Positions 3,856 to 18,757 of a stretch of DNA of 64,000 bases are shown here, piece after piece (positions within the stretch are counted from its first letter, which is position 1; each line of letters begins with the position of its first letter). The notes under the pieces were generated by a model. The model was not told the DNA's origin, searched no databases, and worked only from the letters and a program-made list of their open reading frames with translations. A program made the position numbers and the translations under genes. The DNA is from an uncultured Paracoccaceae bacterium. GTDB taxonomy: Bacteria; Pseudomonadota; Alphaproteobacteria; Rhodobacterales; Rhodobacteraceae. The DNA is taken from the NCBI GenBank assembly GCA_938049225.1, contig CALICM010000004.1, forward strand, positions 1-64,000. The letters are read 5' to 3'.

Positions 3856-5259
3856 TCAGGAGATCACCACCTGAATATCGGTGTACTCCTTCAGGCCCTC
3901 TTCCCCGAATTCGACGCCGATGCCCGACTTCTTCACGCCGCCAAAGGGCACATGGGGGTGGACACCGCCATGGCTGTTGATCCAGACGGTGCCGCATTCC
4001 AGCCGCGCCGCGATGGCCTTTGCGGCCTCGATGTCTTTTGACCAGACCGACCCGCCGAGACCGGTTTGGCTGTCGTTCGCCGCCGCAACCGCATCGTCGA
4101 TGTCAGAGTATTTGATGATCGGGATCGCCGGGCCGAACTGTTCCTCATCCACCAGCGGATCCCCGTTATTCAGATCCGCGATGATGGTGATCGGATAAAA
4201 TAGCCCCTCGCCCGGCGCACCGCCCAGCAGCACACGGCCATGATCCTTGCTCTCTTCGACCAAGCGCGCCACTTTGTCGAACTGCGCCTTGTTGTTGACC
4301 GGCCCCAGGATCGACTCCTCGTCCATGCCGTCGCCCATCGGGATGTTGCGGGCAAATGCGACCAGGGCCTCGCAGACGGCGTCATAGACATCCTCGTGCA
4401 CATAAAGCCGTTTCAACGCGGCGCAGGTCTGCCCCAGATTGATGAAGCAGCCCCAGAACAGCCCTTCGGCGATCTCTGCCGGGTCGACATCGGGCAAAAC
4501 GATGCCCGCGTCGTTGCCGCTCAGCTCCAGGGTAAGGCGCTTCATTGTTTCGGCACCCGACATCATCACCTTCTTGCCCGTGTCGATTGAGCCGGTGAAG
4601 ATGATCTTGCCGATGTCGGGATGCTCGGACATGGCCGCGCCCAGGTTCGACGTTATGTCATCACAAGAGATTACGTTCAGGACGCCCGCCGGCAGCACAT
4701 CGTTCAGGTGCCGCACCAGCCGCAGGGTCGACAGCGGCGTGTAGGGCGACGGCTTCAGCACCACTGTATTGCCTGTTCGCAAGGCAGGAATGATATGCCA
4801 GATCGCGATCAGCACCGGCCAGTTCCACGGCGTGATCGATCCAACGACACCGATGGGCTTGCGGTGCATCTCAACCTTCATCTCGTTGTCGTCCTGAAGA
4901 ACCTTCATCGGCAGCGACAGCGACGAGGTATAGGCGGCCCAGCCCGCGGCGCCCTGCATCTCGAAGCGCGAGCCGATGCCGTTCAGCGGCTTGCCCTGCT
5001 CTTGCGTCAGGATCGGTGCGATCTCGTCGCCGACCTCGCCGATCTTGGCCACCACAGCGTCGCAGTACCCTTTGCGCTCCTCATCCGACAGGGCGGACCA
5101 GGCCGGAAAGGCAGCCTTCGCCGCGGCAACGGCGGCGTCCAGGTGTTCGACCTCGCCGTTTGGGGCCTCTCCTGCGGGCATGCCGGTCGCGGGGTTGTTC
5201 ACCGTGAAGGTGAAGGCGGCGTGAACCTCCTTACCGTCGATCACCATGGGAAGTTGCAT
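3856..5259 (-). CDS. nbaE: Aldehyde dehydrogenase, probable 2-aminomuconate semialdehyde dehydrogenase
   Basis: A 467-residue NAD(P)-dependent aldehyde dehydrogenase. The oxyanion-hole region TPWNWPVL, the catalytic Glu in TLELSGND and the catalytic Cys in NLGQTCAALKR are all present, as is the C-terminal PFGGVKKSGIG. The start was placed at MQLPMVIDG because AGGAGG lies just before it; the upstream in-frame extension looks non-coding. It is the last gene of the 3-hydroxyanthranilate operon, 63 bases after the decarboxylase that makes 2-aminomuconate semialdehyde, so oxidation of that compound to 2-aminomuconate is the best guess. Sequence alone does not fix the substrate; other semialdehydes are possible. 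Confidence 0.75.
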   Translation of the reverse strand: MQLPMVIDGKEVHAAFTFTVNNPATGMPAGEAPNGEVEHLDAAVAAAKAAFPAWSALSDEERKGYCDAVVAKIGEVGDEIAPILTQEQGKPLNGIGSRFEMQGAAGWAAYTSSLSLPMKVLQDDNEMKVEMHRKPIGVVGSITPWNWPVLIAIWHIIPALRTGNTVVLKPSPYTPLSTLRLVRHLNDVLPAGVLNVISCDDITSNLGAAMSEHPDIGKIIFTGSIDTGKKVMMSGAETMKRLTLELSGNDAGIVLPDVDPAEIAEGLFWGCFINLGQTCAALKRLYVHEDVYDAVCEALVAFARNIPMGDGMDEESILGPVNNKAQFDKVARLVEESKDHGRVLLGGAPGEGLFYPITIIADLNNGDPLVDEEQFGPAIPIIKYSDIDDAVAAANDSQTGLGGSVWSKDIEAAKAIAARLECGTVWINSHGGVHPHVPFGGVKKSGIGVEFGEEGLKEYTDIQVVIS

Positions 5260-5322
5260 AGTTTCCTCCTGTTTTTCTGAGGTACTGGAACCGGCGCGCG
5301 GGCCACAAAGACCCACGCGCAG

Positions 5323-6318
5323 TCAGATGTCGAAGAACGCCTCCGTATTGGAGGACAGGATCGCCGCCTTAGTTTCGGGCGAAAGGTCAGGGTGGTTGCG
5401 AACACCGAGCGTCATCTCCTGCTCGGCCAAGGGGAAGGGATAATCCGATCCGTAAAGCACCCGATCCGGTCCCATCACATCTACCACCAATGCCAGTGCC
5501 GCGTCGCTGAAGACTGCGCAATCGACATGGAAACGATCCAGATAATGAGACGGTGGATGGGGGCAGTCAGGGCTGACGCGCGGATGGTGCCGCCAGCCGT
5601 TCTCGATCCGTCCCAGAAGATAGGGAAAACTGCCGCCGCCGTGGGCAAAGACGATTCGCAGATCGCGCAACAGCCGCTCAAAAGCGCCCGAGAGAATCAG
5701 CCGCGTGATCGACAGCTGTGTCTCGGCGGGCATGCCGACCAGCCAAGGCAGCATATAGCCCTGCATCCGCTCGGGCGCCATCATGTCCCAGGGATGCACC
5801 ATCACTGGCGCGCCGATCTCGGCGCAGTGGTTGAGAAAGCGGATCACCTCGTCATCGTCGATCTCGCGCTCGCCGATGTGATTGCCGATCTGAACACCGA
5901 TGTGCCCGGCGGCCATCGCGCGCTCAACTTCGCGGCAGGCGCGATCGGTGTCCTGAAGCGGCACCTGGCACAGGGTGCGCAGCCGTTCGGGCGCCGCGGC
6001 ACACATCTCGAGCGCGGCATCGTTGAACCGTTCTGCCGCCTCGGCAGCCTGTTCCGCAGGTTTGACATAGCCGAACATCACCGGTGTGGCGGACAGGATC
6101 TGCAGGTCGATCCCCTGCGCGTCCAATTCTGCGATGCGCGCGGGCACGTCCCAAAGCGGTCTGCGGACGGGACGAAAGGCGTCGCCTTCGATCATAACCG
6201 TTCCCAGGCCGTCCCCATCCTCGCGCAACCAGGGCCAGGAAGCTCCGATGCGGTCTGCCGCATCGCGGCTGAATCGGGGAAAGAAATGCCCATGCATGTC
6301 GATGGTACGTGCAGACAT
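5323..6318 (-). CDS. nbaD: 2-amino-3-carboxymuconate-6-semialdehyde decarboxylase
   Basis: This 331-residue amidohydrolase-superfamily enzyme closely follows bacterial ACMSD. It begins with the metal motif DMHGHFFP, continues with TPVMFGY, CQVPLQD, IGVQIGNHIG, MVHPWDMM, AHGGGSFPYLLGR and the final metal Asp in YGSDYPFP. It would decarboxylate the ring-cleavage product of 3-hydroxyanthranilate to 2-aminomuconate 6-semialdehyde and so prevent spontaneous quinolinate formation. It follows the dioxygenase gene by 29 bases, which fits consecutive steps. All zinc ligands expected in the family are visible. Confidence 0.92.
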   Translation of the reverse strand: MSARTIDMHGHFFPRFSRDAADRIGASWPWLREDGDGLGTVMIEGDAFRPVRRPLWDVPARIAELDAQGIDLQILSATPVMFGYVKPAEQAAEAAERFNDAALEMCAAAPERLRTLCQVPLQDTDRACREVERAMAAGHIGVQIGNHIGEREIDDDEVIRFLNHCAEIGAPVMVHPWDMMAPERMQGYMLPWLVGMPAETQLSITRLILSGAFERLLRDLRIVFAHGGGSFPYLLGRIENGWRHHPRVSPDCPHPPSHYLDRFHVDCAVFSDAALALVVDVMGPDRVLYGSDYPFPLAEQEMTLGVRNHPDLSPETKAAILSSNTEAFFDI

Positions 6319-6347
6319 GGCGTGTCCTCAGGTGGAAGGGGCGAACA

Positions 6348-6893
6348 TCACAGCACCACCCAGCCGTCCGGCACGTCCTTGCCCGGATGGACTGCCCCGC
6401 AGTTCGGGCAGGTCCGCGCTTCCATATCCGCATAGAAGGCATTGAAGAGCGGCGGGATCGCCTTCACGATATCCTTCACGCCGGTCTGCACGCGATGAAC
6501 GCTGTGGCCGCATTCGAAACAGAACCATTCAAACGCATCCTCGGCCCCGTCGCGCCGCTCCCCCTCCAGCACCAGTCCGATCGAGCCCTCCATGGGCCGC
6601 TGCGGCGAATGGTAGATATGTGCTGGCAGGTGGAACACCTCGCCCTCGCGGATGGGCACGTCGTAAAACTCGCCGTTTTCCATGAGTTTCAGGACCATGT
6701 CGCCCTTCACCTGGAAGAAGAACTCATCCACCGGATCGTCGTGATAATCCGTACGCTTGTTGGGTCCGCCAATGACCATGATCACCATGCCGCTGTCATT
6801 GTCGAAGAGCCGCCGGTTGCCGACAGGCGGTTTCAGATGATGGGCGTTTTCCTGGGTCCAGGCCTCGAAATTGAACGATTTCCGCAGTTGCAT
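6348..6893 (-). CDS. nbaC: 3-hydroxyanthranilate 3,4-dioxygenase
   Basis: A 181-residue cupin dioxygenase. The Fe(II) ligands expected for the bacterial enzyme are in place: His51 and Glu57 in YHDDPVDEFF and His95 in HIYHSP. Arg47 precedes them in NKRTDYHDD. A C-terminal rubredoxin-like metal site is formed by CFECGH and CPNCG, as in bacterial but not most mammalian homologues. It opens the ring of 3-hydroxyanthranilate to 2-amino-3-carboxymuconate semialdehyde. It lies 47 bases after the aldolase gene in the same operon. No kynureninase or kynurenine monooxygenase is nearby, so 3-hydroxyanthranilate must come from another route. Confidence 0.95.
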   Translation of the reverse strand: MQLRKSFNFEAWTQENAHHLKPPVGNRRLFDNDSGMVIMVIGGPNKRTDYHDDPVDEFFFQVKGDMVLKLMENGEFYDVPIREGEVFHLPAHIYHSPQRPMEGSIGLVLEGERRDGAEDAFEWFCFECGHSVHRVQTGVKDIVKAIPPLFNAFYADMEARTCPNCGAVHPGKDVPDGWVVL

Positions 6894-6940
6894 GATGTCC
6901 TCCGCTCCATCTGTTGTGGGTGTCGCACGGGCGATCCGAG

Positions 6941-7975
6941 TCAGGCCACGTGTTCGGCCATCCCGCGTTTCTTGATGTCCAGCGCGACGTCAACGATCAT
7001 GTCCTCCCGACCGCCGACCATCCCGCGTTTGCCCAGTTCGATCAGGATCTCGCGCACATCGACGCCGTGCCGCTCAGCGGCGCGTTCAGCATGCAACAGA
7101 AAACTTGAATAGACCCCGGCATAGCCCAGCAGGGCGGTTTGGCTGTCGACCCGGACGGGGCGCTGCTGCAAGGGCCGCACCAGTTCCTCGGCCGCGTCCA
7201 TCAGCGCAAACACATCGCAGCCATGCTGCCACCCGCGTTTGTTCGCGGCGGCGACAAAGACCTCCAGCGGCGTGTTGCCCGCCCCCGCGCCCATCCCGGC
7301 CAGTGAGGCATCGACCCGCACCGCGCCGTTCTCGACCCCGGCCATGGCATTCGCGACGCCGAAGGTCAGATTGTGATGCGCATGGATGCCGCGTTCTGTC
7401 TCGGGGCGCAGCACCTCGCCGAAGGCCTGCATCCGGTCGGCTACGTCCAGCGGGTCCAGCGCGCCACCGGAATCGACGACATAGACGCAGTTCGCGCCAT
7501 AGCCCTCCATAAGTTTCGCCTGCGCAGCCAGGCCCTCGGGCGTGCTCATATGGCTCATCATCAGAAAGCCGCTGACATCCATGCCGAGTGCGGCCGCCTC
7601 GCGGATGTGCTGCAGCGAAACATCGGCTTCGGTGCAATGGGTCGCGACCCGCACCGAGGTAACGCCCAGATCGCGCGCCCGGCGCAAATCCTCGAAAGTG
7701 CCGATCCCCGGGATCAGCAGCGTCGTCAGCCGCGCCCTGTCGATGACCGAAGCGGCGGCTTCGATCCACTCCCAATCCGACCGCGCGCCGAACCCGTAGT
7801 TGAACGAGGATCCCGCGAGCCCATCGCCATGGGCGACCTCGATGGCGTCGACCCCGGCGGCATCCAGCGCGCGGGCGATCTCGCGGACCTGATCGAGCGA
7901 ATAGCCGTGGCCGATCGCGTGCATCCCGTCGCGCAGCGTCACGTCCTGTATATAAAGTTTCGCCGGGCCGGTCAT
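6941..7975 (-). CDS. nbaI: 4-hydroxy-2-oxovalerate aldolase
   Basis: A 344-residue DRE-TIM aldolase with the signature [12 protein letters not shown] near residue 12, the metal-binding HAHHNL near 200 and a C-terminal communication domain ending [10 protein letters not shown]. It cleaves 4-hydroxy-2-oxovalerate to pyruvate and acetaldehyde, and normally forms a channelling complex with acetaldehyde dehydrogenase. That partner is encoded immediately upstream with a 4-base overlap. This is the lower meta-cleavage pathway (MhpE/DmpG/NbaI type). Confidence 0.95.
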
Positions 7976-8925
7976 GACGCTGCCCTTTGCGGTCGCGCGT
8001 GATGAGCAGCCAGCCGTTCCGCCGCCGCCAGCGCGGCCGAGGTCATGATGTCAAGGTTTCCGGCATAAGACGGCAGGTAGTCGCCCGCGCCCTCGACCTC
8101 CAAAAAGACCGAAACCCTCTTGGCGTCAGTCACGGGCGATCCGGCGATGCGGCTGGCTTCTGCCTCGTCTATCGCCTCGGTCAACACTTCCTGCTTCAAT
8201 CGATAGCCGGGCACATAGTCGGCGACGTCCCGCACCATTCGCGCGACCGAGGATCTGATCGCCGTCGCATCGCCGCCAACGGACAGCGCATAGATCGTGC
8301 AACGCATCAGCAATGGCGGATCCGCCGGGTTGAGGACGATGATCGCCTTGCCGCGCCCCGCTCCGCCAAGCACGCGCAGCGCGTTCGCGGTTGTATCGGT
8401 AAACTCGTCAATGTTCGCCCGGGTGCCCGGCCCAGCCGAGCGGGACGAGATCGACGAAACGACCTCGGCGTAAGGTAGTTCTTTCGACACGGCGCCAATG
8501 GCCCGAACGATGGGGATCGTCGCCTGCCCGCCGCAGGTCACCATATTGATGTTCGGCGCGTCGATATGCTGGTCCATGTTCACCACCGGCACCAGATACG
8601 GCCCGACCGCGGCAGGGGTGAGGTCGATCATCCGTTTGCCGTGCCGGGCGCAAAGATCCGCATGCTTAGCATGAGCGCCGGCGCTGGTCGCATCGAAGAC
8701 GATATCGATATCGGCCCAGACATCGCTTGCGATTAGCCCGTCGATCCCCTGATGGGTGGTGAAAACGCCCAGGTCCCGCGCCATGCCCAGCCCCTCGGAT
8801 GCCGGATCGACACCGACCATCGCCGAGAGCGCCAGCGAATTTGACCGATGGGTGATCTTCATCATCAGATCAGCGCCGATGTTGCCGGATCCGAGGATCG
8901 CGCAGCGCGCCGGGCGGCCGATCAT
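7972..8925 (-). CDS. nbaJ: Acetaldehyde dehydrogenase (acetylating)
   Basis: The 317-residue product has the nucleotide-binding start [14 protein letters not shown], the motif [13 protein letters not shown] containing the catalytic Cys, and [17 protein letters not shown], as in MhpF/DmpF. It converts acetaldehyde, NAD and CoA to acetyl-CoA. The ATG used overlaps the preceding hydratase stop by four bases (ATGA). Longer in-frame starts would run deep into the neighbour and lack the family start. It is the dedicated partner of the aldolase, so acetaldehyde is likely channelled. Confidence 0.94.
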
Positions 8926-9749
8926 TGTCCGTCCTCGCCCGTGAAGCTGCATCCCACCGGCGCGAACCCATCGACTGCCAGCACAAACCGGTGCCCGGCC
9001 GTAACGGGCACCATCGGCCCCAGGGCCCCGGACAGCACCACATCCCCGGCTTGCAGCGGCCGTCCGACCGCGGCCATCTTGCGCGCGAGCCAGCAGAGCG
9101 CCGTCAATGGATCGCCAAGGCAAGCTGCGCCTGACCCGGTCGAGACCTCCGCACCATTGGCCGAAAGCGTCATGCGGCAGGCAACCAGATCGACCTCGGA
9201 CAGCGCCACGCGATCGTCGCCAAGGACGTAGAGCCCCGACGAGGCGTTGTCGGCAATTGTGTCGGCAAGGCGAATGTCCCAGTCCCGGATCCGGCTGTCG
9301 ACAATCTCAAGTGCCGCAGTCGCATAGCCGACTGCGGCCGTCACCGCCTCGCGCGGCGCCTCCGGATTATCCACCCCGGCCGCCATAACGAAAGCGATCT
9401 CGCCTTCGATCTTTGGCTGGATCAGGGTCGAGATCGGAACCTTGCCACCATTCGGCACCGCCATATCGGCAAAAAGCATCCCATAGTCTGGCTGATCCAC
9501 GCCAAGCTGCGCCTGAACTGCCTTGGAGGTCAGCCCGATCTTCCGGCCGGTCAGTCGTTGCCCCTGTGCCAGCCGGAACGCCGTGTTTAACTCCTGCACC
9601 GCATAGGCCTCGTCGGCATCAGCGGCACCGATCAGATCACGCACGGGGGCAACTGGGCTGCGCGAAGCCAATGCTGCGCGCAGCTGCTGCGCCACTGCCT
9701 GGCGGGGGGATTGCCTGGCGGCGGGCGTAGTGTCGGCGGTCAGGCCCAT
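8922..9749 (-). CDS. mhpD: 2-oxopent-4-enoate (2-hydroxypentadienoate) hydratase
   Basis: A 275-residue member of the fumarylacetoacetate-hydrolase-like hydratase/decarboxylase family. It tracks MhpD well: [26 protein letters not shown], the metal ligands in [36 protein letters not shown] and [11 protein letters not shown]. It adds water to 2-hydroxypenta-2,4-dienoate, giving 4-hydroxy-2-oxovalerate. 4-oxalocrotonate decarboxylases belong to the same family, but motif order and spacing favour the hydratase. Only one family member is present, so a separate decarboxylase (NbaG) is missing from this window. Start MGLTAD lies 2 bases after the hydrolase stop. Confidence 0.85.
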
Positions 9750-9751
9750 AT

Positions 9752-10594
9752 TCAGATACCCCTCAGGAATGATTGGACAAGATGGCTGAACAGCTTGGGA
9801 TGCTCGATCATCGTCCAGTGGCCGCATTTGCCAATCACGTGCAGTTGCGCGTTGGGGATGAGCTGCGCCATGCGCCAAGACGCGTCGACAGGAATGATCC
9901 GATCGTCCCGCCCGTGGATCAGAAGCGCCTTATGGGGAAGCGACTTCAACGCCTCATCCCCAACGGCTAGCGCATCTAGCCACCGCTGGCGCGGCGCGGG
10001 GAACAGCGCGGCGTAGGCATCCTGGAACCCCGGCTGGTTCGACGCCTCGAACCGCAGATTCACCAGATCGTCTGTGATGAGTGCCGGGTCGTAGGCGAAA
10101 TTGAGAAGTACGTCGCGCATTGCTTTCGGCGAGGGCTCATAACCCCAGAGATCGTCCAGCGCCGGCGTCAACGGCATTTCGATCCCAGTGCTGCCCATCA
10201 GTACGAGCCGGTCGACGCGGTCCGGATAAGCCGTGGCGAACGAAAGCGCGACCGCCCCGCCAAAGGAGTTGCCGACGACGCTGACCCGCTTGATCCTCAA
10301 AGCGTCGAGAAGGCTCGCCACCTGATCGGTCCAGCTTTTCAGGAACTCGTACCGCCCGGCCCAGTCCGGTAGCTCAGTATAGCCGAAGCCCAACAGATCG
10401 GGCGCGATGACGCGAAAGCCGCCGCTCATCTGCGGGATAATCCCCCGCCAATTCGCCCAAGCGGTGACCCCCGGCCCCGAGCCATGCAGGAACAACACGC
10501 ACTCCGGACCTGCGCCCTCGTCGTGATAATGGGTCCGAAAATCCCCCGTCTGGATCAGAAATCCGTTGTTGTCGCTTTTCACCGGAGACCCCAT
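9752..10594 (-). CDS. Meta-cleavage C-C hydrolase (2-hydroxymuconate semialdehyde hydrolase type)
   Basis: A 280-residue alpha/beta hydrolase of MhpC/DmpD type. LFLHGSGPGVTAWANW holds the oxyanion hole. GNSFGG carries the nucleophile Ser, HGRDD the Asp and GKCGHWTMIEHP the His. Family enzymes cut 2-hydroxymuconate semialdehydes or dienediones to 2-hydroxypentadienoate and an acid. It is tied to ridA by a one-base overlap (TGATG) and followed by the hydratase after 2 bases, so it should act between deamination and hydration. The classical 2-aminomuconate pathway has no such hydrolase. Its presence suggests a hydrolytic, formate-releasing branch. A thioesterase role is an alternative. Confidence 0.85.
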   Translation of the reverse strand: MGSPVKSDNNGFLIQTGDFRTHYHDEGAGPECVLFLHGSGPGVTAWANWRGIIPQMSGGFRVIAPDLLGFGYTELPDWAGRYEFLKSWTDQVASLLDALRIKRVSVVGNSFGGAVALSFATAYPDRVDRLVLMGSTGIEMPLTPALDDLWGYEPSPKAMRDVLLNFAYDPALITDDLVNLRFEASNQPGFQDAYAALFPAPRQRWLDALAVGDEALKSLPHKALLIHGRDDRIIPVDASWRMAQLIPNAQLHVIGKCGHWTMIEHPKLFSHLVQSFLRGI

Positions 10595-11076
10595 CAGTTC
10601 TTAACCTGAACGATGAGTTCCGCCTCGACCGGAACGTCTACCGTCATCGTGTGGGAGTAGAGTGCGGCGCGCGCAGGCTTGCCGCGGTCAGGTCCAAAGA
10701 CCTCGACAAACAGGTCCGTGGTACCGTTCAGCACCCAGGGCGCCTCTTTGAAGTCGGGCGCGGAGTGCACATAGCCCACAAGCCGCACCATCCGAACGAC
10801 ATTATCCAGATCGCCGACCGCCTGCTTCATCTTGGCGATGAAGTTCAGCCCCATGTGCCGGGCCGATTTGTAGCCCTCCTCGACCGTCAAATCCTCGCCC
10901 AGCTTTCCCTTAATCGGGACGATGAACTCGCCGTCCGGTCCCGTGTCAAACCCGGCAGAGCCCGAGATGAAAAGAAGCTCGCGAACCTGTACATAGGGCG
11001 CGTAATTCGCCATCGGCACGGGCGGATTCGGCAGGGTAATCCCCAGCTCCTCCAAACGCCTCTCGGTCTCTCCCAT
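10594..11076 (-). CDS. nbaF: RidA/YjgF-family deaminase, probable 2-aminomuconate(-semialdehyde) deaminase
   Basis: A 160-residue RidA-family protein, with NYAPYVQVRELLFISGSAG near the N-terminus, the middle segment LDNVVRMVRLVGYV and the C-terminal PARAALYSHTMTVDVPVEAELIVQ. Known 2-aminomuconate deaminases belong to this family and hydrolyse enamine/imine groups. ATG at MGETERRLEEL follows AGGAAAG. It is the first gene of the minus-strand operon, divergent from marR. Because the next genes are a C-C hydrolase and a hydratase, it may deaminate the 6-semialdehyde itself to 2-hydroxymuconate semialdehyde (inference). Confidence 0.78.
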   Translation of the reverse strand: MGETERRLEELGITLPNPPVPMANYAPYVQVRELLFISGSAGFDTGPDGEFIVPIKGKLGEDLTVEEGYKSARHMGLNFIAKMKQAVGDLDNVVRMVRLVGYVHSAPDFKEAPWVLNGTTDLFVEVFGPDRGKPARAALYSHTMTVDVPVEAELIVQVKN

Positions 11077-11134: not shown

Positions 11135-11191
11135 GTCAACATATGACATGGCGATTTTCGATTGCCGCCCCATACACGAGGAAGTAAGCTT

Positions 11192-11770
11192 ATGAATAAT
11201 TTGCGTCTGCTCTCGCGCTCTCCAGTCACATCGAAGAGTGAATCCCGGTCCGCATCTGGACGCCAACCATTTGAAGTAATGACTAAACCAATGCTCGAAA
11301 ACGCGCACGACGTCTATGACGACCAACCCCCTCCGGGAGATGAGTTCATCCAGAACTACCTCCCCTATCTTCTTGCGCGCGCAAGCAGCCGGATGTCGGC
11401 CGAGTTTCACGAGCGGGTCAAAAACGCCGGCTACAGCGTGCCCTTCTGGCGGGTCATGGGCGCGATTCCGCCCGAAGGCGGGCTGTCGGTCTCGGACCTC
11501 GTCAATCGGACGATGCTGGGCCAGCCGACATTGACCAAGATTATCATGCGGATGGAGGACGCGGGGCTGATCTACAAGCAGATCTCGACCCAGGACGCCC
11601 GCCGTACCGAGATCGCGCTGACCGACTTTGGCCGGCAGGAGGTCGACCGTTTGATCAAGGCGGCCAAACGTCATGAGAAGAAAGTGCTGATGGATATGGA
11701 CGAGGGCTCGGTCGAGAACCTCAAGGAAGCCATTCGATTTCTGATCGCGCGGCTTGAGCCGGAAATCTGA
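11192..11770 (+). CDS. MarR-family regulator of the aromatic catabolic region
   Basis: A 192-residue winged-helix regulator. After a variable N-terminus come FIQNYLPYLLARASSRMSAEF, the recognition region DLVNRTMLGQPTLTKIIMRME and the wing AGLIYKQISTQDARRTEIALT, typical of MarR proteins that sense aromatic acids or their CoA esters. The start has GAGGAAG before it; ATG at 11279 is an alternative, since the first 29 residues are not conserved-looking. It lies between the two catabolic operons and divergent from the first. The repeated site TTATATTTCATATAA near five promoters is the likely target. Confidence 0.88.
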   Translation: MNNLRLLSRSPVTSKSESRSASGRQPFEVMTKPMLENAHDVYDDQPPPGDEFIQNYLPYLLARASSRMSAEFHERVKNAGYSVPFWRVMGAIPPEGGLSVSDLVNRTMLGQPTLTKIIMRMEDAGLIYKQISTQDARRTEIALTDFGRQEVDRLIKAAKRHEKKVLMDMDEGSVENLKEAIRFLIARLEPEI

Positions 11771-11840: not shown

Positions 11841-13310
11841 TCAGAGTAGCGCCGCCAGGTCTGACTTCAGGATCTTGCCCATGCCGTTTCTCGGCAGCGC
11901 GTCCACAAAATGGATCTCCTTGGGCCATTTGATGCGTGAGAGCTTGCCGTCATAGCAGGCGATCAGGTCGTCCGCCGTCGCCGAGGCCGAGCTGTGCAGT
12001 TCGACAAACGCGACCGGCACTTCGCCCCAGCGCCTGTGCGATTTCCCGACCACCGCCACTGCCTTCACTGCGGCGTGGTTCTGCAGCACACCCTCGACTT
12101 CCGCCGAATAGATATTCTCGCCGCCGGAGATGATCAGACCCTTCTTCCGGTCGACAACCCAGAAATAGCCGTCCTCGTCCACGTATCCGACATCCCCGGT
12201 ACGAAACCACCCGTCGTGTAGCGCGTCGCGGGTCGCAGCCTCGTTGCGCCAATAGCCGGTCATCACATTGGGCCCACGCACAACGATCTCGCCCCGCTCG
12301 CCCACCGCACTGGGCTGCCCGTCAGCGTCAACGATCCGCACATCGCAATGCAGGACCGGCTTGCCGCAAGACCCGATCCGCTCGAACGCATCGCGCGGAT
12401 CGAGGCACAGCGAGGTCGGGCAGGTTTCGGTCGTGCCATACACCTGGCTGACCGGCACACCCCGGTCATGCAGTGCCTGGATCAGCGGCAGGGGCACGAT
12501 TGAGGATCCAGTGTTCACCAACCGTAGGCTGGACAGATCGCAGGCCGCCCAGCCCTCGGCCCCCGTCAAGGCCTGGATTTGCGCGGGCACAAGCGTGATC
12601 AGGCTCGGCCGTCGCGTTTCGATCCGCTCGAGTGTCCGCGCGACATCGAATTTCTCCTCAAGCACCACGCATCCGCCCTGATGCAGCGTGGGCAAGGTCA
12701 GCAGGTTCAGGCCACCCCCATGAAACAGCGGGATGGTGGTCAGCGTCACGTCCCGCGCTGTGACCCCATACATCGCGATACCGTTCAGGATGTTGATCCG
12801 AAGCGCCCCGTGGCTCAGCACCGCGCCCTTGGGCCGCCCGGTCGTGCCGGAGGTATAGACGATCAATAGCGGCGCGTCGTCGCTCAGGTCCACTGCCGCG
12901 TCGCCCTCACCCGACACCCCTTCAAGCGTCGACGCAGGCGTGACGGCGCATCCGTTGGGCGCGACCTCGGCCAGCATCTCGATGAACTTGTCGTCGGCAA
13001 AGCAAACCTTCGGATCGCTGTCCTCTAGCAGAAAGGCGTATTCCGCGGGCGCGAGCCGAGTGTTGAGCGGGGCAAAGATCGCACCAAGCCGGGCGCAGGC
13101 AAAGAGCAGCACCAGGATGCGCGGATTGTTCAACCCGACATAGGCGACGCGGTCGCCCCGCTTCACCCCATAATCCTCGCGCAGATGCCGGGCAATAGAT
13201 ACCGCCCAGCCGGCCATCTCGCCATACGTGATGGTGCGGTCGTCGAAAACAATCGCTGGATCAGGGCCGATCCTGTCGCCCTGCCTGGCCAGCCAGTCGA
13301 AAAAATTCAT
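11841..13310 (-). CDS. Acyl/aryl-CoA ligase (AMP-forming)
   Basis: A 489-residue class I adenylate-forming enzyme. The P-loop-like motif is IVYTSGTTGRPKGAVLSH, followed by VYGTTETCPT, then GWFRTGDVGYVDEDGYFWV with the hinge motif DRKKGLIISGGENIYS and the C-terminal catalytic Lys region PRNGMGKILKSDL. It would activate a carboxylic acid as a CoA thioester. Start MNFFDWLARQG follows GAGG; an upstream in-frame extension is low-complexity. It is last in the nicX-hydrolase-dehydrogenase operon, so the acid is presumably the initial aromatic or a pathway intermediate. An anthranilate-like substrate is attractive, but the sequence does not prove it. Confidence 0.88.
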   Translation of the reverse strand: MNFFDWLARQGDRIGPDPAIVFDDRTITYGEMAGWAVSIARHLREDYGVKRGDRVAYVGLNNPRILVLLFACARLGAIFAPLNTRLAPAEYAFLLEDSDPKVCFADDKFIEMLAEVAPNGCAVTPASTLEGVSGEGDAAVDLSDDAPLLIVYTSGTTGRPKGAVLSHGALRINILNGIAMYGVTARDVTLTTIPLFHGGGLNLLTLPTLHQGGCVVLEEKFDVARTLERIETRRPSLITLVPAQIQALTGAEGWAACDLSSLRLVNTGSSIVPLPLIQALHDRGVPVSQVYGTTETCPTSLCLDPRDAFERIGSCGKPVLHCDVRIVDADGQPSAVGERGEIVVRGPNVMTGYWRNEAATRDALHDGWFRTGDVGYVDEDGYFWVVDRKKGLIISGGENIYSAEVEGVLQNHAAVKAVAVVGKSHRRWGEVPVAFVELHSSASATADDLIACYDGKLSRIKWPKEIHFVDALPRNGMGKILKSDLAALL

Positions 13311-13439
13311 CTTTTTATCCTCGGCTCGGTGTCGCGGGCCAGCGGCCGAGCGGATTTCGGCTGGCCGGAGTTCGGCGCGGCTGGGGTCTGGTTGCGGGGG
13401 CGGACCAGCGCGACATGCGCACTGACCCACCCGATCTGA

Positions 13440-14765
13440 TCAATCCTTCTCGCCCGGCTCGTAGAGGCTCTCATGACCAAGCCGCCGCTCGATAATCTCG
13501 GCCGTCCAGGGCAACATCAGTGAACCGCAGCGGCTTTCGCGATAGATCCGCTCAAGCGGGAAGGATTTCAGCAACGTCCGTCCGCCGCAGGTGCGCAGCG
13601 CAAGCGAGGCGATCTCGTTGCAGTTCTCCATAATCGTGTATTGTGCCGCATAGCAGCTTAGCCGCTCGTCCTTGGTTGGATTCGGCTTGGCCTCGCGCGT
13701 CGTCTTCTCGAACATCGCGCGCGCGTTCTCCAGCAGCAGGCGCATCTTTGCGATCGCATACTGCTTCTCTGGCACTTTGCGCGACTTACCTAAAACGCCG
13801 GGCACCTCACCGCGCAGGTATTTTACCGTGAAATCGAACGCGCCCTGGGCAACCCCCATATAACTGGGTGACAAGCTGAAGAAGAGATGCGGCCAGTTCA
13901 GCGCCACCTTGTGGTAGACACCAACCGGCATCAGCTGCAACTGGTCGGGCACGAACACATTATCCAGCTTCAGGTTGCGCGAAACCGTGGCGCGCATCCC
14001 CATCGGATCCCAATCGCCAAAGATCTCGAACCCCTCGGTATCCCCCGGAACGGCCAGATAGACCGAATTGGTGACGCTCAAGTCCCCATCGCCCTCGTCC
14101 ACCGAGCAGACCATCGAGTAGAAGGTCGCCGCACCCGAAAGCGACGCGAAATGCTTCATGCCGCTGACCAGCCATCCCCCGTCAACCCGTTTCGCGGTCG
14201 TGCCGAAAGGCGCCTTGCCTGCAGCGGCGGCAGTATTGGGCTCCGAAAACGGCTGCGCAAAGATTACGCCATCATCCAACACTCGTTTGTAAACGAAGGC
14301 CCGGTTCGCGTGTTGCATCCGGCGCTCGTCATCCGGCAACTCGATGTCGTCCGACGCTTGGCCGATCCACAGCAACGTCGCGCAGTGCATGTTGAAGGTC
14401 AGCGCCGTGGCACCGCACCAGCGGCCGATCTCGGCAGAGATATGGCAATAGGTCTCGTAACTCGCGCCCACACCGCCGTATTCCTTCGGGATGACAAGGC
14501 CCAGAAACCCGGCATCCCGCAGGTCTTGGTAGTTCGCATGCGGGAAAGACGCCTCGGCGTCATACTGCGGTGCGCGATCGGCGAACCGGGTCTCGCCTAG
14601 CTCTCGAGCGATAGCGAGAAGCGCGTCACGGTCCATGTCACTGATGGCAACCGGGCCGGTCCAAGGCGACGGCGCGTCGCCGCTGTTTACAGAATCTGGG
14701 TCTGCGGACGCGTGCCCATTGAGCGGCGCGGCCTCGGCGAGCATAACTGACGATTGTTTGGACAC
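13440..14765 (-). CDS. Acyl-CoA-dehydrogenase-fold flavoprotein without the usual catalytic Glu
   Basis: A 441-residue protein with the acyl-CoA dehydrogenase fold. The N-terminal helical part contains LGLVIPKEYGGVGASYETYCHI, the middle FAQPFSEPNTAAAAG, then SGMKHFASLSGAATFYS and the C-terminal LRTCGGRTLLKSFPLERIYRE. Where true dehydrogenases have the catalytic Glu (IYEGT), this protein reads RCGSLMLPWTAEI, so it probably does not do alpha,beta-dehydrogenation. Family members with such changes act as two-component flavin monooxygenases, for example IacA- or DszC-like proteins. A flavin reductase is encoded nearby, divergent from this operon. Hydroxylation of an aryl-CoA made by the adjacent ligase is a reasonable hypothesis. 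Confidence 0.8.
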   Translation of the reverse strand: MSKQSSVMLAEAAPLNGHASADPDSVNSGDAPSPWTGPVAISDMDRDALLAIARELGETRFADRAPQYDAEASFPHANYQDLRDAGFLGLVIPKEYGGVGASYETYCHISAEIGRWCGATALTFNMHCATLLWIGQASDDIELPDDERRMQHANRAFVYKRVLDDGVIFAQPFSEPNTAAAAGKAPFGTTAKRVDGGWLVSGMKHFASLSGAATFYSMVCSVDEGDGDLSVTNSVYLAVPGDTEGFEIFGDWDPMGMRATVSRNLKLDNVFVPDQLQLMPVGVYHKVALNWPHLFFSLSPSYMGVAQGAFDFTVKYLRGEVPGVLGKSRKVPEKQYAIAKMRLLLENARAMFEKTTREAKPNPTKDERLSCYAAQYTIMENCNEIASLALRTCGGRTLLKSFPLERIYRESRCGSLMLPWTAEIIERRLGHESLYEPGEKD

Positions 14766-14775
14766 GTGCGTCTCC

Positions 14776-15555
14776 TTAGACTTTGGAAAGGAATTGTACG
14801 ACCACGTTGTTGAACGCGTCGGATGCTTCGAAGTTCGCCAAGTGCCCGATGCCCGGAAAGACGACGGTCTCGGAACCGGCGATCTTGCCTGCCATCTTCT
14901 CCATGACCGGTAGGGGCGCGTTCTTGTCCTGCTCGCCCGCGATCAGAAGCGTCGGGACCGCGATCTTGGGCAGGTTTTCCCGTCCCTCGAAGGTGACGAG
15001 GTTCCGCATCGCGGTCTTGTAGGTCCCTACGGGGACTCCGGCCATACAGCGGACCGCCTGGGCGACGCCCTCAGGGGCGGCGCTTTCACCCACCATCCCC
15101 GGCACGAATTTGGCCGCGAAATCCGGCATGGTCATGTTATGGGCGTCGAAGGGTTCGAACCGGTCGCGGATGAACGCCTTCTGCCAGTCGCCATCGGGCT
15201 TGCCGAATGCGGGGCTGGTGGCCGACAGCACCGCCGCCCTGACCCGCTCTGGCCGATGCGCCAGATAGCTCTGGGCGACCATCCCGCCCATCGAATGACC
15301 GACCAGCACGGCCCGCGCGACACCCAGAGTGTCCAGGGTGGCCGAGACCGCATCACGCAGATCGGCCCAGGTCAGCGCCGGGGGCGTCGGCGTGCCGCCA
15401 TAACCAGGACAGTCAATCGCGACAAAGCGCCATCCGGCCTCCACAACCGCCGCTTTTTGGAGATTCCAACTGCTGGCGTCACCCCCGACACCGTGGAGAA
15501 ACACCATCGTGTCCGGCCCGTCGCCGCAGGTCGTGAATGAATGTTGAAGGGTCAC
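14776..15555 (-). CDS. Alpha/beta hydrolase, NicD- or enol-lactonase-like
   Basis: A 259-residue alpha/beta hydrolase. The oxyanion segment is FLHGVGGDASSW, the nucleophile elbow GHSMGGMVAQSY, the Asp lies in LLIAGEQDKNAP and the His in FPGIGHLANFEA. This organisation is shared by 3-oxoadipate enol-lactonase and by N-formylmaleamate deformylase (NicD). Its gene overlaps the NicX-like dioxygenase by four bases. In the nicotinate pathway NicD directly follows NicX, so a deformylase acting on the ring-opened product is the favoured guess. A thioesterase is a second option, given the CoA ligase in the same operon. Confidence 0.75.
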   Translation of the reverse strand: MTLQHSFTTCGDGPDTMVFLHGVGGDASSWNLQKAAVVEAGWRFVAIDCPGYGGTPTPPALTWADLRDAVSATLDTLGVARAVLVGHSMGGMVAQSYLAHRPERVRAAVLSATSPAFGKPDGDWQKAFIRDRFEPFDAHNMTMPDFAAKFVPGMVGESAAPEGVAQAVRCMAGVPVGTYKTAMRNLVTFEGRENLPKIAVPTLLIAGEQDKNAPLPVMEKMAGKIAGSETVVFPGIGHLANFEASDAFNNVVVQFLSKV

Positions 15556-16599
15556 GCCAGTTCCCCCACCAACTGGCCCCGTTCGATCACATGGGTGTTG
15601 TCCACATAGAGTGTGCAGTCCTTCAGCGGCAGGTCGAAATGACCAAGCGTGTAGCGATCGACCACTTCATTCGCTCCGGTGGAATAGAGGAAATTGCCCG
15701 CGAAAACCCGCTGTTCGGTACAGTTCAAGTCCGCGCGGTCATACATCGCCATCGCGTCCCAGCGGGCCTCTTTGTTCATACCCCAACCGACATGCGAGAC
15801 GGCATAGGCCTCCCGGTCGCCCCAGGCGGCGAAATAGCTGCGCATGAGATCGGCATCGAGGCCCTTGCCCTCGATCTCTTTGATGAAGTCGTCCTTGATT
15901 TGCAGCGTGACCGGGCTCTCCAGAAACCGCTTGAAGGTCAGGTTCTGATCGCCGGCATTCAGTACCAACCGCCCATTGACGGCATCGCGGCGCGGGAAAC
16001 ACAGGTACAGCCCGCCGGGCCAGTGTGTGATCGTGCCGAGGGTCGAGGTGTAGCCCCAGCCCGAGCCCACAAGCGCCCCGTCGATGGTGATCTCCAGGTC
16101 GGTGCCCGCGTCCGAGGTTACACTCATCGTCTTACCGGACTTCATTATCTTTGTGCCGATCTTGACGCGGTCCTTGAGGTCGGCGTCCGAGGTCACCCGC
16201 TCAAGGATCTCGCGATGCTCGTTGGAAATCACCAGCACACGCGAACCCGCCTTCATGATCTCCGCCAGTTCCGGCGCATGGAGCATCGCCTCAACCGTCA
16301 GATCCGCGATGAACACGCCGCTGGTGAGCGCTTTCATCGCGGGCACTAGGCCGCAGATACTATCGGTCGCGCCGGTGGAGCGGATCGGCGCCGGCGCGCG
16401 TTGGGGCGGGGTCGGCACCACCACATGAACCGGATTGGCGCCAATGCGTAGCAGCGCCAGTTCGGCAAGCTGGACGTTCAATTGCCGCGACTGGGTTTCT
16501 GGAGAGAATTACGACCGGATCGCCCGGCTTCACGGCGCATTTCTCGAAAACATCGGCGAAGGCGTCGATCCACTTCCCTTCAATGCGATCGTTGTGCAT
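15552..16599 (-). pseudogene. NicX-like 2,5-dihydroxypyridine dioxygenase, frameshifted
   Basis: The main frame codes a protein close to NicX (2,5-dihydroxypyridine 5,6-dioxygenase), with VSHVGWGMNKEARWDAMAM, QRVFAGNFLYSTGANE and LGHFDLPLKDCTLYVDN. The N-terminal part, beginning MHNDRIEGKWIDAFADVFEK, is in another frame. The two join if a single A near 16500 is removed, giving VVILSETQSRQLNVQLAEL. As read, the gene is interrupted after about 33 codons. Start ATG at 16599 has GGAG before it; ATG at 16611 is an alternative. Either the gene is inactivated or the base is a sequencing error. The rest of the frame is clean, so any mutation is recent. Confidence 0.8.
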
Positions 16600-16615
16600 T
16601 ACCCACTCCATCTCA

Positions 16616-16630
16616 TCATATGAATAATTA
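16616..16630. promoter_or_regulatory. AT-rich repeated site, copy 4
   Basis: On the minus strand TAATTATTCATATGA, matching the core TTCATAT of the shared site. It lies just before the NicX-like gene start, where a bound repressor would block the second catabolic operon. It is more degenerate than copies 2 and 3. Confidence 0.4.
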
Positions 16631-16790
16631 TATAATAAATAAACTATGTCTGCAAGAGGAAGTTTGAGTCCCGTATGCGGAACCACACCGGTCCCGTCGA
16701 AGGGGGCAGCAGGCAGCACAAAAGTCGGCTTGGACCTGCACCCCACCGTCGCAGGTACGTATTCAACGCCCGCCCAAAGGCACAAGTGAT

Positions 16791-16805
16791 ATATATGAAA
16801 AAGAA
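16791..16805. promoter_or_regulatory. AT-rich repeated site, copy 5
   Basis: On the minus strand TTCTTTTTCATATAT, in the leader of the flavin reductase gene 47-61 bases before its start. It shares the TTTCATAT core with the other four copies. Confidence 0.4.
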
Positions 16806-16851
16806 TATTATTCATGTTATGGAGGGCAATCCGACAGCAGAGGTGAATGCA

Positions 16852-17331
16852 ATGCACAACTACCGCCGCGCGCTAGGACAGTTCGCCACCGGCATCACGA
16901 TCGTCACAGCCCTCGACGCGCAGGGCAAGCCGGTAGGGCTGACGGCAAATTCCTTCACATCCGTCTCTCTCAAACCTCGGCTGATCAGCTGGAGCCTTGG
17001 AAAGGAGTCAAAGAACGCACCCGCCTTCCTCGAGGCCGAAGGGTTCTGCGTCAACATCCTTACATCGCGCCAGCAAGTGCTGTCCGACCGTTTCGCCAAT
17101 GGCGGAATTGACAAATACGAAGGTGTAGACTGGGAGCCGTCTACCTGCGGCGCGCCAAAGCTGAAGGGCGTCGCCGCCAATTTTGAGTGTCGTCTTCACA
17201 GCGCCATCGAGGCTGGCGATCACTACATGTTCCTGGGTGAGGTCGTCGAATATAGTAGCCAGATCGTAGATCCATTGCTCTTCGTCGCGGGGTCATATGC
17301 ACGCGTAGAAAGAGCGTCTGCCGCTTCATGA
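16852..17331 (+). CDS. Flavin reductase (HpaC-like)
   Basis: A 159-residue flavin reductase domain protein. The start MHNYRRALGQFATGITIVTA is the usual family beginning, followed by LTANSFTSVSLKPRLISWSLGK, FCVNILTSRQQVLSDRFA and the C-terminal DHYMFLGEVVEY. It would supply reduced FMN or FAD to a partner oxygenase. The likely partner is the acyl-CoA-dehydrogenase-fold protein at 13440-14765. The chosen ATG has AGAGGTG before it; in-frame upstream ATGs at 16795 and 16819 lack good sites and would add unconserved residues. It is divergent from the NicX-like operon and has an IS element directly behind it. Confidence 0.88.
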   Translation: MHNYRRALGQFATGITIVTALDAQGKPVGLTANSFTSVSLKPRLISWSLGKESKNAPAFLEAEGFCVNILTSRQQVLSDRFANGGIDKYEGVDWEPSTCGAPKLKGVAANFECRLHSAIEAGDHYMFLGEVVEYSSQIVDPLLFVAGSYARVERASAAS

Positions 17332-17444
17332 CGAGCCATTGAGGTTGACCTGAGCCCCGAGTTCCCTCCAGCCGATCGGGGAGTCCTTCGGTTGCTGCGC
17401 TGCTCCCCAACCTTGGACCGCCGGAAGTTGGATTTTTCCGGTTT

Positions 17445-18305
17445 CTATCCCGATGGCGGGCTGGTGATCCCGTCGGGATAATGCACTGAGACCGGTACGT
17501 TGTATCCGATCGCGCTGTGGGGTCTGTCCTCGTTGTAGTGTGTTCGCCAAGCCTTCAACTTTTCGTGAGCGTCGGCAAGGCTCATGAACCAGTAGGCGTT
17601 CAGACATTCCGTCCTCAGCTTGCTGTTGAACGCCTCTATGAAGCCGTTATCCGTCGGTTTCCCTGGTCGGGAGAAGTCCAGCGTGACGTTATTGGCATAG
17701 GCCCAGAGATCCAGATCGCGGGAGATGAACTCGCTTCCATTGTTCACTCGGATCGTCTTCGGGTAGCCGACTGAGCCGCATACCCGTTCCAGCGTCTGTA
17801 AGACACCTTCGCCTCGATAACTGAAGCGCGGATCGGCCGCCGGGCACAGGCGGGAATGCGTGTCGACGATGGTCAGGATGCGCAGCTTCTTCCCCAGAGC
17901 GAGCTGATCATGGACGAAGTCCATCGCCCAGACGTCGTTCGGCCCAACGGCTTCCTGACGGTCCTCTCGAAGCTTGGCCTTCACCCGCCGCTTTGGGTGC
18001 TTGTTCCGAACCTGCAGGCCTAACTCATTGTAGATCCTACGGGTCTTCTTCATGTTGATCATCCACCCCTCACGCCGCAACAAGACATGAACGCGCCGAT
18101 AGCCATAGCGCACCCGCGTCTCAGCGATCTCCTTAATCCGTCTCTCAACGGCAGCCTGATCCGTCCGCCGGGATTTGTAGTGGTAGGTGGACGTGTCGAA
18201 GCGGATGACCCCACAGGCCTTCCGGATCGACACGCCCCAATCGACGCACATCCCGGTCACGATCTCACGTAAACGGTCCCGCTGCCCGGCAGCGCATGCT
18301 TGCAT
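17445..18305 (-). CDS. IS3-family transposase OrfB with DDE mutation
   Basis: A 286-residue integrase-core transposase very like IS407-group OrfB, with DTSTYHYKSRR, YGYRRVHVLLRREGW, NDVWAMDFVHDQL with the first Asp, then FSRPGKPTDNGFIEAFNSKLR with the Glu. The second catalytic Asp should sit in RVDNGSEF, but here the codon at 17742-17744 is AAC, giving RVNNGSEF. A D-to-N change at this position should abolish metal-dependent catalysis. The family usually makes OrfAB by frameshifting from orfA, so the start shown may not be used alone. Confidence 0.85.
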   Translation of the reverse strand: MQACAAGQRDRLREIVTGMCVDWGVSIRKACGVIRFDTSTYHYKSRRTDQAAVERRIKEIAETRVRYGYRRVHVLLRREGWMINMKKTRRIYNELGLQVRNKHPKRRVKAKLREDRQEAVGPNDVWAMDFVHDQLALGKKLRILTIVDTHSRLCPAADPRFSYRGEGVLQTLERVCGSVGYPKTIRVNNGSEFISRDLDLWAYANNVTLDFSRPGKPTDNGFIEAFNSKLRTECLNAYWFMSLADAHEKLKAWRTHYNEDRPHSAIGYNVPVSVHYPDGITSPPSG

Positions 18306-18586
18306 GCACGAGAGGGGGGCTTCAGAGCTTTCGCCGAATGACGTCCCGAAGCAAGTCTGTCCGGGGTCAGGTCCGCGACGATCTTCTTAAGCCGGGAATT
18401 CTCGTCTTCGAGCGCCTTCAGTCGACGCATCTCGTCCGGCAGCAAACCGCCATACTTCTTCTTCCAATTAAAGTACGTCGCCTGACTGATCCCAGCCTCT
18501 CGGCAAATCTCCGCCACCGGCACGCCTTCCTCGCCTTGCTTCAGAATGAACGCCTTCTGCGACTCCGTGAACTTCGATGCTTTCAT
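18257..18586 (-). pseudogene. IS3-family OrfA, 3' end frameshifted
   Basis: It begins MKASKFTESQKAFILKQGEE with the helix-turn-helix region VAEICREAGISQATYFNWKK and the leucine-zipper start LKALEDENSRLKKIVADL, as in IS407-group OrfA. After ADLTP the expected C-terminus (DLLRDVIRRKL, stop) is found in another frame ending near 18322, so an indel around 18355-18365 shifts the frame and adds a meaningless tail. This would also spoil the normal OrfA-OrfB programmed frameshift. Confidence 0.7.
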
Positions 18587-18757
18587 GCGTTTCCGCTCAT
18601 CTCCCAGCCCGGGAAAACTAACGGAAAACTCCAGCTTCAAACGATCCAGGTTTCAGGAGGCAGAGCACACAAAGCCAAAGGTTCGACTACCGCCGGGCGG
18701 GGCACGTGGGATTTGAATCAAACCGGTCCACCTAGCAGTTCAATCATCAATAGAAAT

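Follow-up and report, generated by a model that had tools for sequence, protein, structure and literature searches.

The 64,000-nucleotide stretch of DNA analysed here (the window) comes from contig CALICM010000004.1 of an uncultured Paracoccaceae bacterium (assembly GCA_938049225.1), and eight genes on its minus strand, running from 11076 to 3856, form an operon that probably serves the meta-cleavage of 3-hydroxyanthranilate by a hydrolytic variant of the known pathway, one that would release formate. This is the reading best supported by the sequence comparisons. We also hold, with a little more confidence than doubt, that the operon represents an undescribed branch, in which Rid1-type deamination and C-C hydrolysis to formate would bypass 2-aminomuconate semialdehyde dehydrogenase (AMSDH), 2-aminomuconate deaminase and 4-oxalocrotonate decarboxylase. 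From first to last, the genes of the operon are the following.

10594..11076, minus strand: Rid1-like RidA-family protein of 160 residues, encoded at the head of the operon and a putative imine/enamine deaminase (PF14588/PF01042, YjgF_endoribonc)
9752..10594, minus strand: meta-cleavage C-C hydrolase of the alpha/beta fold, XylF/CumD type, with putative formate release (Abhydrolase_1)
8922..9749, minus strand: 2-hydroxypentadienoate (2-oxopent-4-enoate) hydratase of the FAH family (PRK11342, 310 bits; dmpE, 265 bits; dmpH decarboxylase, 183 bits)
7972..8925, minus strand: acylating acetaldehyde dehydrogenase (TIGR03215, 426 bits against a cut-off of 282)
6941..7975, minus strand: 4-hydroxy-2-oxovalerate aldolase (TIGR03217, 544 bits against a cut-off of 286)
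6348..6893, minus strand: 3-hydroxyanthranilate 3,4-dioxygenase (3HAO; TIGR03037, 230 bits against a cut-off of 146)
5323..6318, minus strand: 2-amino-3-carboxymuconate 6-semialdehyde decarboxylase (ACMSD; matches solved bacterial ACMSD structures, best E=1.5e-121)
3856..5259, minus strand: aldehyde dehydrogenase (ALDH), not of the AMSDH or 2-hydroxymuconate semialdehyde dehydrogenase (HMSDH) type (TIGR03216, 274.6 bits against a cut-off of 693)

The run of eight recognised genes is coherent, and thus it is not a chance arrangement of open reading frames. Its first five genes are tightly packed: the RidA-family and hydrolase genes overlap by 1 base, the hydratase gene follows the hydrolase gene after 2 bases, and overlaps of 4 bases join the hydratase gene to the acetaldehyde dehydrogenase gene and the latter to the aldolase gene. 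Gaps of 47, 29 and 63 bases precede the 3HAO, ACMSD and ALDH genes, respectively. The coordinates, the 1-base overlap and the 2-base gap reported in the initial annotation of this DNA were all exact, and its description of the ALDH gene as separately spaced agrees with the 63-base gap. The start of the ALDH gene was set at 5259 by choice of the start codon, with a ribosome-binding-like AGGAGG ahead of it, while the longest open reading frame would start at 5316. Since the G+C content of the operon genes (60-66%) is near that of the window between 20148 and 64000 (62%), composition gives no sign of foreign origin.

The two ring-cleavage enzymes can be assigned firmly from their sequences. 3HAO passes both curated cut-offs in the profile search and matches the solved bacterial enzyme 1yfu with E=4e-61, and its active site (iron ligands and substrate residues) and second metal site align with those of 1yfu. 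No other 3HAO of the genome passes the cut-off, a second, weak match staying below. In ACMSD, the metal ligands and substrate arginines align with those of the solved ACMSDs. The operon therefore has the 3HAO and ACMSD pair by which nba/onb clusters are recognised, and because both enzymes carry the usual active-site residues, 2-aminomuconate 6-semialdehyde would be the expected intermediate.

At the other end of the pathway, the hydratase, aldolase and acetaldehyde dehydrogenase are predicted to convert 2-hydroxypentadienoate to pyruvate and acetyl-CoA. The best model for the hydratase gene is PRK11342, yet no hydratase or decarboxylase model scores over its own cut-off. Among solved structures, its product matches 2-keto-4-pentenoate hydratase (E=3e-74, 253 bits) ahead of the decarboxylase NahK (E=3e-39, 139 bits), and is thus nearer to the hydratases (MhpD/DmpE) than to 4-oxalocrotonate decarboxylase.

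Between these two parts of the pathway stand the hydrolase and the RidA-family protein. The best match of the hydrolase in the PDB is 2-hydroxy-6-oxo-7-methylocta-2,4-dienoate hydrolase (2d0d, CumD type, E=2e-91), and 1u2e, of the MhpC type, is matched with E=3e-36. The initial annotation had called the protein MhpC/DmpD-type, of which the DmpD/XylF/CumD side can be kept and the MhpC side dropped. Aligned with the catalytic triad of CumD, the triad is intact (Ser110/Asp231/His259), so that the protein has both the Ser-Asp-His triad and the overall homology expected of XylF/DmpD/CumD hydrolases. Its identity to the hydrolase encoded in the meta (catechol) operon of pWW53 is 53%.

The RidA-family protein has four PDB matches, of which two uncharacterised proteins come first, followed by PA0814 (E=8e-12) and ACIAD3089 (E=2e-8), both described as members of the Rid1 subfamily (PMC5619798). 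Its Arg136 is the equivalent of the Rid residue Arg105 and aligns with the arginine of PA0814 and of NbaF-type proteins. This conserved arginine is regarded as a predictor of imine deaminase activity (PMC5619798, PMC4433059), and Rid1 proteins are described as deaminating several imino acids (PMC5619798). The protein is 47-50% identical to two RidAs of other contexts, and 17-23% identical to five RidAs from four nba-type plasmid clusters. None of the 7 RidA-family matches in the genome was an NbaF/AmnD-type deaminase, the best alignments to an NbaF protein being 35% over 91 residues and 30% over 125 residues.

The initial annotation had seen no NbaG-like decarboxylase in the cluster, and this now holds for the whole 4.0-Mb assembly (101 contigs, 99.1% complete), in which none of 4 PF01557 (FAH-family) matches is a recognisable 4-oxalocrotonate decarboxylase. 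It had also proposed a genome search for a further gene of the hydratase/decarboxylase family, taking a 4-oxalocrotonate decarboxylase as evidence against its proposal; the three extra FAH genes found outside the operon are not of that type. Their best models are didehydro-deoxyrhamnonate hydrolase and PRK10691, neither of which reaches its cut-off, and fumarylacetoacetase, which does; the dmpH model matches none of the three. The TIGR03216 model, which covers 2-hydroxymuconate and 2-aminomuconate semialdehyde dehydrogenases, matched 11 places in the genome with 0 over its cut-off. According to Huo et al. (PMC4286809), Arg120 and Arg464 of AMSDH bind the substrate, are strictly conserved in the family and are absent from other ALDHs. 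Both arginines together occurred in none of the 6 best-scoring of the 11 places, the operon ALDH included, although one genomic ALDH (L085) has the second of them and not the first.

The ALDH of the operon itself was considered as a candidate AMSDH and rejected. It has Gln and Val in the columns of Arg120 and Arg464 and scores far below the TIGR03216 cut-off, and its relatives at 67-71% identity lie in other contexts, with a tyramine oxidase gene adjoining 2 of the 3 that were opened.

Equivalents of NbaE, NbaF and NbaG were thus found neither in the cluster nor in the assembly, which bears out the absence part of the earlier proposal that NbaE and NbaG are bypassed. The NbaE-F-G segment therefore appears to be missing, with a Rid1-like protein and a hydrolase of intact triad in its place. 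In the pathway that we propose, 3HAO would open 3-hydroxyanthranilate to 2-amino-3-carboxymuconate 6-semialdehyde, and ACMSD would convert this to 2-aminomuconate 6-semialdehyde. The amino group would then be removed by the Rid1-like protein, and the XylF/CumD-like hydrolase would cut the C5-C6 bond to give formate and 2-hydroxypenta-2,4-dienoate, which the hydratase, aldolase and acetaldehyde dehydrogenase would take on to pyruvate and acetyl-CoA. Two enzymes would in this way do the work of NbaE, NbaF and NbaG. We favour an order in which deamination comes first and yields 2-hydroxymuconate semialdehyde, because 2-aminomuconate semialdehyde is reported to decay to picolinate with a half-life near 9 s (pH 7.5, 37 °C; PMC4286809), which speaks for quick deamination. 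A formate dehydrogenase gene, over its cut-off, is present elsewhere in the genome, and its product could regain the NADH that NbaE would otherwise make. Combined with it, the hydrolytic route would match the oxidative one in its overall yield of CO2 and NADH.

The operon shares with the nba/onb clusters of 2-nitrobenzoate or tryptophan degradation the genes for 3HAO, ACMSD, hydratase, aldolase and acetaldehyde dehydrogenase, the ring-cleavage pair being homologous. It differs from them in having no AMSDH (NbaE/OnbE), no NbaF-type deaminase and no recognisable 4-oxalocrotonate decarboxylase, and in having a C-C hydrolase and a Rid1-like protein; in the onb cluster, the semialdehyde is described as being oxidised, deaminated and later decarboxylated (PMC5817917). 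With the catechol meta pathway (xyl/dmp; cum), the operon has in common the order hydrolase-hydratase-acetaldehyde dehydrogenase-aldolase, as on pWW53, and the presumed substrate 2-hydroxymuconate semialdehyde, whereas 3HAO, ACMSD and RidA make up the upper part of its pathway instead of catechol 2,3-dioxygenase. On pWW53, the hydrolase-to-aldolase block lies between genes for a dehydrogenase and a decarboxylase, whereas the block of the operon has neither an HMSDH-type dehydrogenase nor a decarboxylase beside it. Because the order from hydrolase to aldolase equals that of pWW53, the operon looks like a catechol-type hydrolytic lower block joined to a 3HAO/ACMSD pair and headed by a Rid1-like gene. 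The p-cumate (cmt) pathway likewise proceeds through a dioxygenase, a decarboxylase and then a C-C hydrolase, hydratase, aldolase and dehydrogenase, but its substrate has no amino group and it has no deaminase.

The initial annotation knew of no described pathway with this arrangement. For the combination acting on 3-hydroxyanthranilate this stands, as none was found, whereas each of the steps has a precedent. C-C hydrolysis forms the hydrolytic branch of catechol degradation as outlined in PMC10470539. In the 4-amino-3-hydroxybenzoate pathway of Bordetella sp. 10d, deamination is described as taking place at the semialdehyde stage, before oxidation (PMC4539516); it resembles our scheme in leading to 2-hydroxymuconate semialdehyde, but that pathway starts from another compound, and oxidation followed by decarboxylation takes the place of hydrolysis. 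A hydrolytic route from 2-aminomuconate semialdehyde was not described in the titles and abstract openings searched, which cover the subscription literature thinly.

Searches in other genomes, in sets that overlap, indicated that the operon is rare. Of 149 genomes of the family, 3 had a match to the hydrolase (the window's own included), and neither of the other two shows the operon's combination of genes. In genome G049, the hydrolase match lies within a meta-pathway operon having both dehydrogenase and decarboxylase, and in G061 there are two such loci, each with an ACMSD-like gene. ACMSD was matched only in the window's own genome among 390 genomes of the order, and the exact combination was not found with its matches in 385 genomes of the class (5 others), 398 genomes of the phylum (9 others) or the genome contig collection (56 loci). 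RidA matched 2 other genomes among the 385 of the class (45-46% identity), whose short loci show neither 3HAO nor ACMSD, and the operon RidA had no match in 73 other locus pieces and five further ones. A joined query of RidA and hydrolase matched 796 among 72,556 plasmid records, none of which covered 80% of the query in one place; 36 plasmid records had an ACMSD match, and 6 of these were opened.

With the window excluded, 18 distinct loci had an ACMSD at least 49% identical (L014, L015, L017, L019, L021, L023-L027, L078, L117/L128, L118, L120, L126/L127, L137, L138 and L140; L136 and L139, whose contigs have the same lengths, were counted as repeats of L015 and L026), among which L023, L024, L025, L138 and L140 are short or truncated at the end of a contig. 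An NbaF-type gene was present in 14 of them and an NbaE-type gene in 11, while a hydrolase more than 40% identical was present in 1 and the operon RidA in 0; the hydrolase match of L117/L128 is of 26% only. The single locus with such a hydrolase belongs to G1119, a genome of another family, where the gene (L126:5999-6829, 50% identity) precedes the NbaF gene by some 1.2 kb in a complete nba-type locus that also holds transporter genes of the TRAP and MFS types. A hydrolase of this kind near a 3HAO/ACMSD pair was found in two genomes, and only in that of the window is it the sole recognised route.

Other arrangements were seen in the same searches. The 3HAO and ACMSD pairs of L078:6931-11023, L025:6931-11023 and L140:5687-10059 have no NbaE, NbaF or NbaG match nearby, L025 and L140 being cut by contig ends, and each pair is adjoined by an 800-residue transketolase/pyruvate dehydrogenase E1-like gene (Pfam was run on L078 and L140); possibly they represent another undescribed downstream route. 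In G061, two contigs (L079 and L080) each carry a meta-cleavage hydrolase and an ACMSD-like gene (about 33% identity) but nothing that matches 3HAO; they may serve a route in which a catechol-carboxylate is handled by decarboxylase and hydrolase. On plasmids of Ruegeria, Paroceanicella and Ensifer (L010, L011 and L013), 3HAO lies near dihydrodipicolinate-synthase-family and aspartate dehydrogenase genes, and no ACMSD is named in the annotation shown.

Several points weigh against the hydrolytic reading. The RidA-family protein is placed with Rid1 members by sequence similarity, its action on 2-aminomuconate semialdehyde is a prediction, and an unlinked second gene of the genome (L092) is 45% identical to it. 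A missed gene is possible because the assembly consists of 101 contigs and is 99.1% complete, and the inspection of substrate arginines covered the 6 best-scoring of the 11 TIGR03216 places. The exact gene combination occurs in one genome only among those searched. Since G1119 has the full NbaE-F-G set, the hydrolase there can be at most a side branch. Finally, hydrolase-only meta operons usually serve ketone, not aldehyde, cleavage products.

This last point also counts for the main rival explanation, which we consider unlikely, namely that the operon acts on a 3-hydroxyanthranilate with a substituted ring, such as a 4-alkyl derivative. The ring-cleavage product would then be a ketone, which no dehydrogenase could oxidise, and the hydrolase would free a longer acid such as acetate, the rest of the scheme being unchanged. 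Consistent with this, the best solved-structure match of the hydrolase is named for an isopropyl-ketone substrate, and the cluster itself has no recognised gene for the formation of 3-hydroxyanthranilate (the genome was not searched for kynurenine 3-monooxygenase). However, 3HAO and ACMSD are close to the enzymes for unsubstituted 3-hydroxyanthranilate and have their usual active-site residues, a kynureninase gene elsewhere in the genome scores over its cut-off, and among the neighbours of the operon no gene was recognised that would make a substituted substrate.

Somewhat less probable again is a reversed order of steps, in which the hydrolase would act first on 2-aminomuconate semialdehyde to give formate and 2-aminopenta-2,4-dienoate, and the Rid1-like protein would then hydrolyse the 2-imino acid. 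Meta-cleavage hydrolases are known to act on 2-hydroxy (keto-tautomer) substrates, and we know of none that acts on a 2-amino analogue. A 2-imino acid would be the more typical Rid substrate, as Rid1 proteins are described as acting on those derived from several amino acids (PMC5619798), and the semialdehyde bound to AMSDH has been proposed to be an imine tautomer (PMC4286809), which could act as an electron sink, but the half-life of about 9 s given in the same paper favours quick deamination beforehand. The ordinary oxidative route, in which the ALDH at 3856-5259 would form 2-aminomuconate, RidA would deaminate it, an unrecognised decarboxylase elsewhere would follow and the hydrolase would be a passenger from a catechol operon, is the least probable of the three: the ALDH gene does lie just downstream on the same strand, and several 3HAO/ACMSD loci have no NbaG match in the stretch compared, so that parts of the pathway can lie elsewhere, but the ALDH lacks equivalents of Arg120 and Arg464 and its 67-71% relatives lie in other contexts, none of the 4 FAH-family matches is a decarboxylase candidate, and RidA is not NbaF-like.

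Beyond the first gene of the operon, the window contains the following features.

11162..11770, plus strand: MarR-family regulator, divergent from the operon (best model HpaR, score below cut-off)
11841-16857, minus strand: second operon, with genes for an AMP-ligase, an acyl-CoA dehydrogenase-like protein, a PcaD-like hydrolase and a protein related to 2,5-dihydroxypyridine 5,6-dioxygenase (E=1e-52)
17326-18640, minus strand: IS3-like transposase genes (HTH_Tnp_1 and rve domains), just upstream of the second operon

The gene content of the second operon suggests hydroxypyridine degradation. Picolinate, the spontaneous product of the semialdehyde, is degraded via 2,5-dihydroxypyridine in other bacteria, and thus the two operons might be connected.

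If the hydrolytic reading of the eight-gene operon is true, the naive annotation of these genes as an incomplete nba pathway would be corrected. 2-Aminomuconate semialdehyde, an unstable branch point of the kynurenine pathway, would be disposed of without a dehydrogenase, a known chemical problem thereby being solved in a new way, and a member of the little-studied Rid1 subfamily would gain a specific physiological substrate in a dedicated catabolic role. The operon would also show how a lower catechol operon can join an amino-aromatic ring-cleavage pair.

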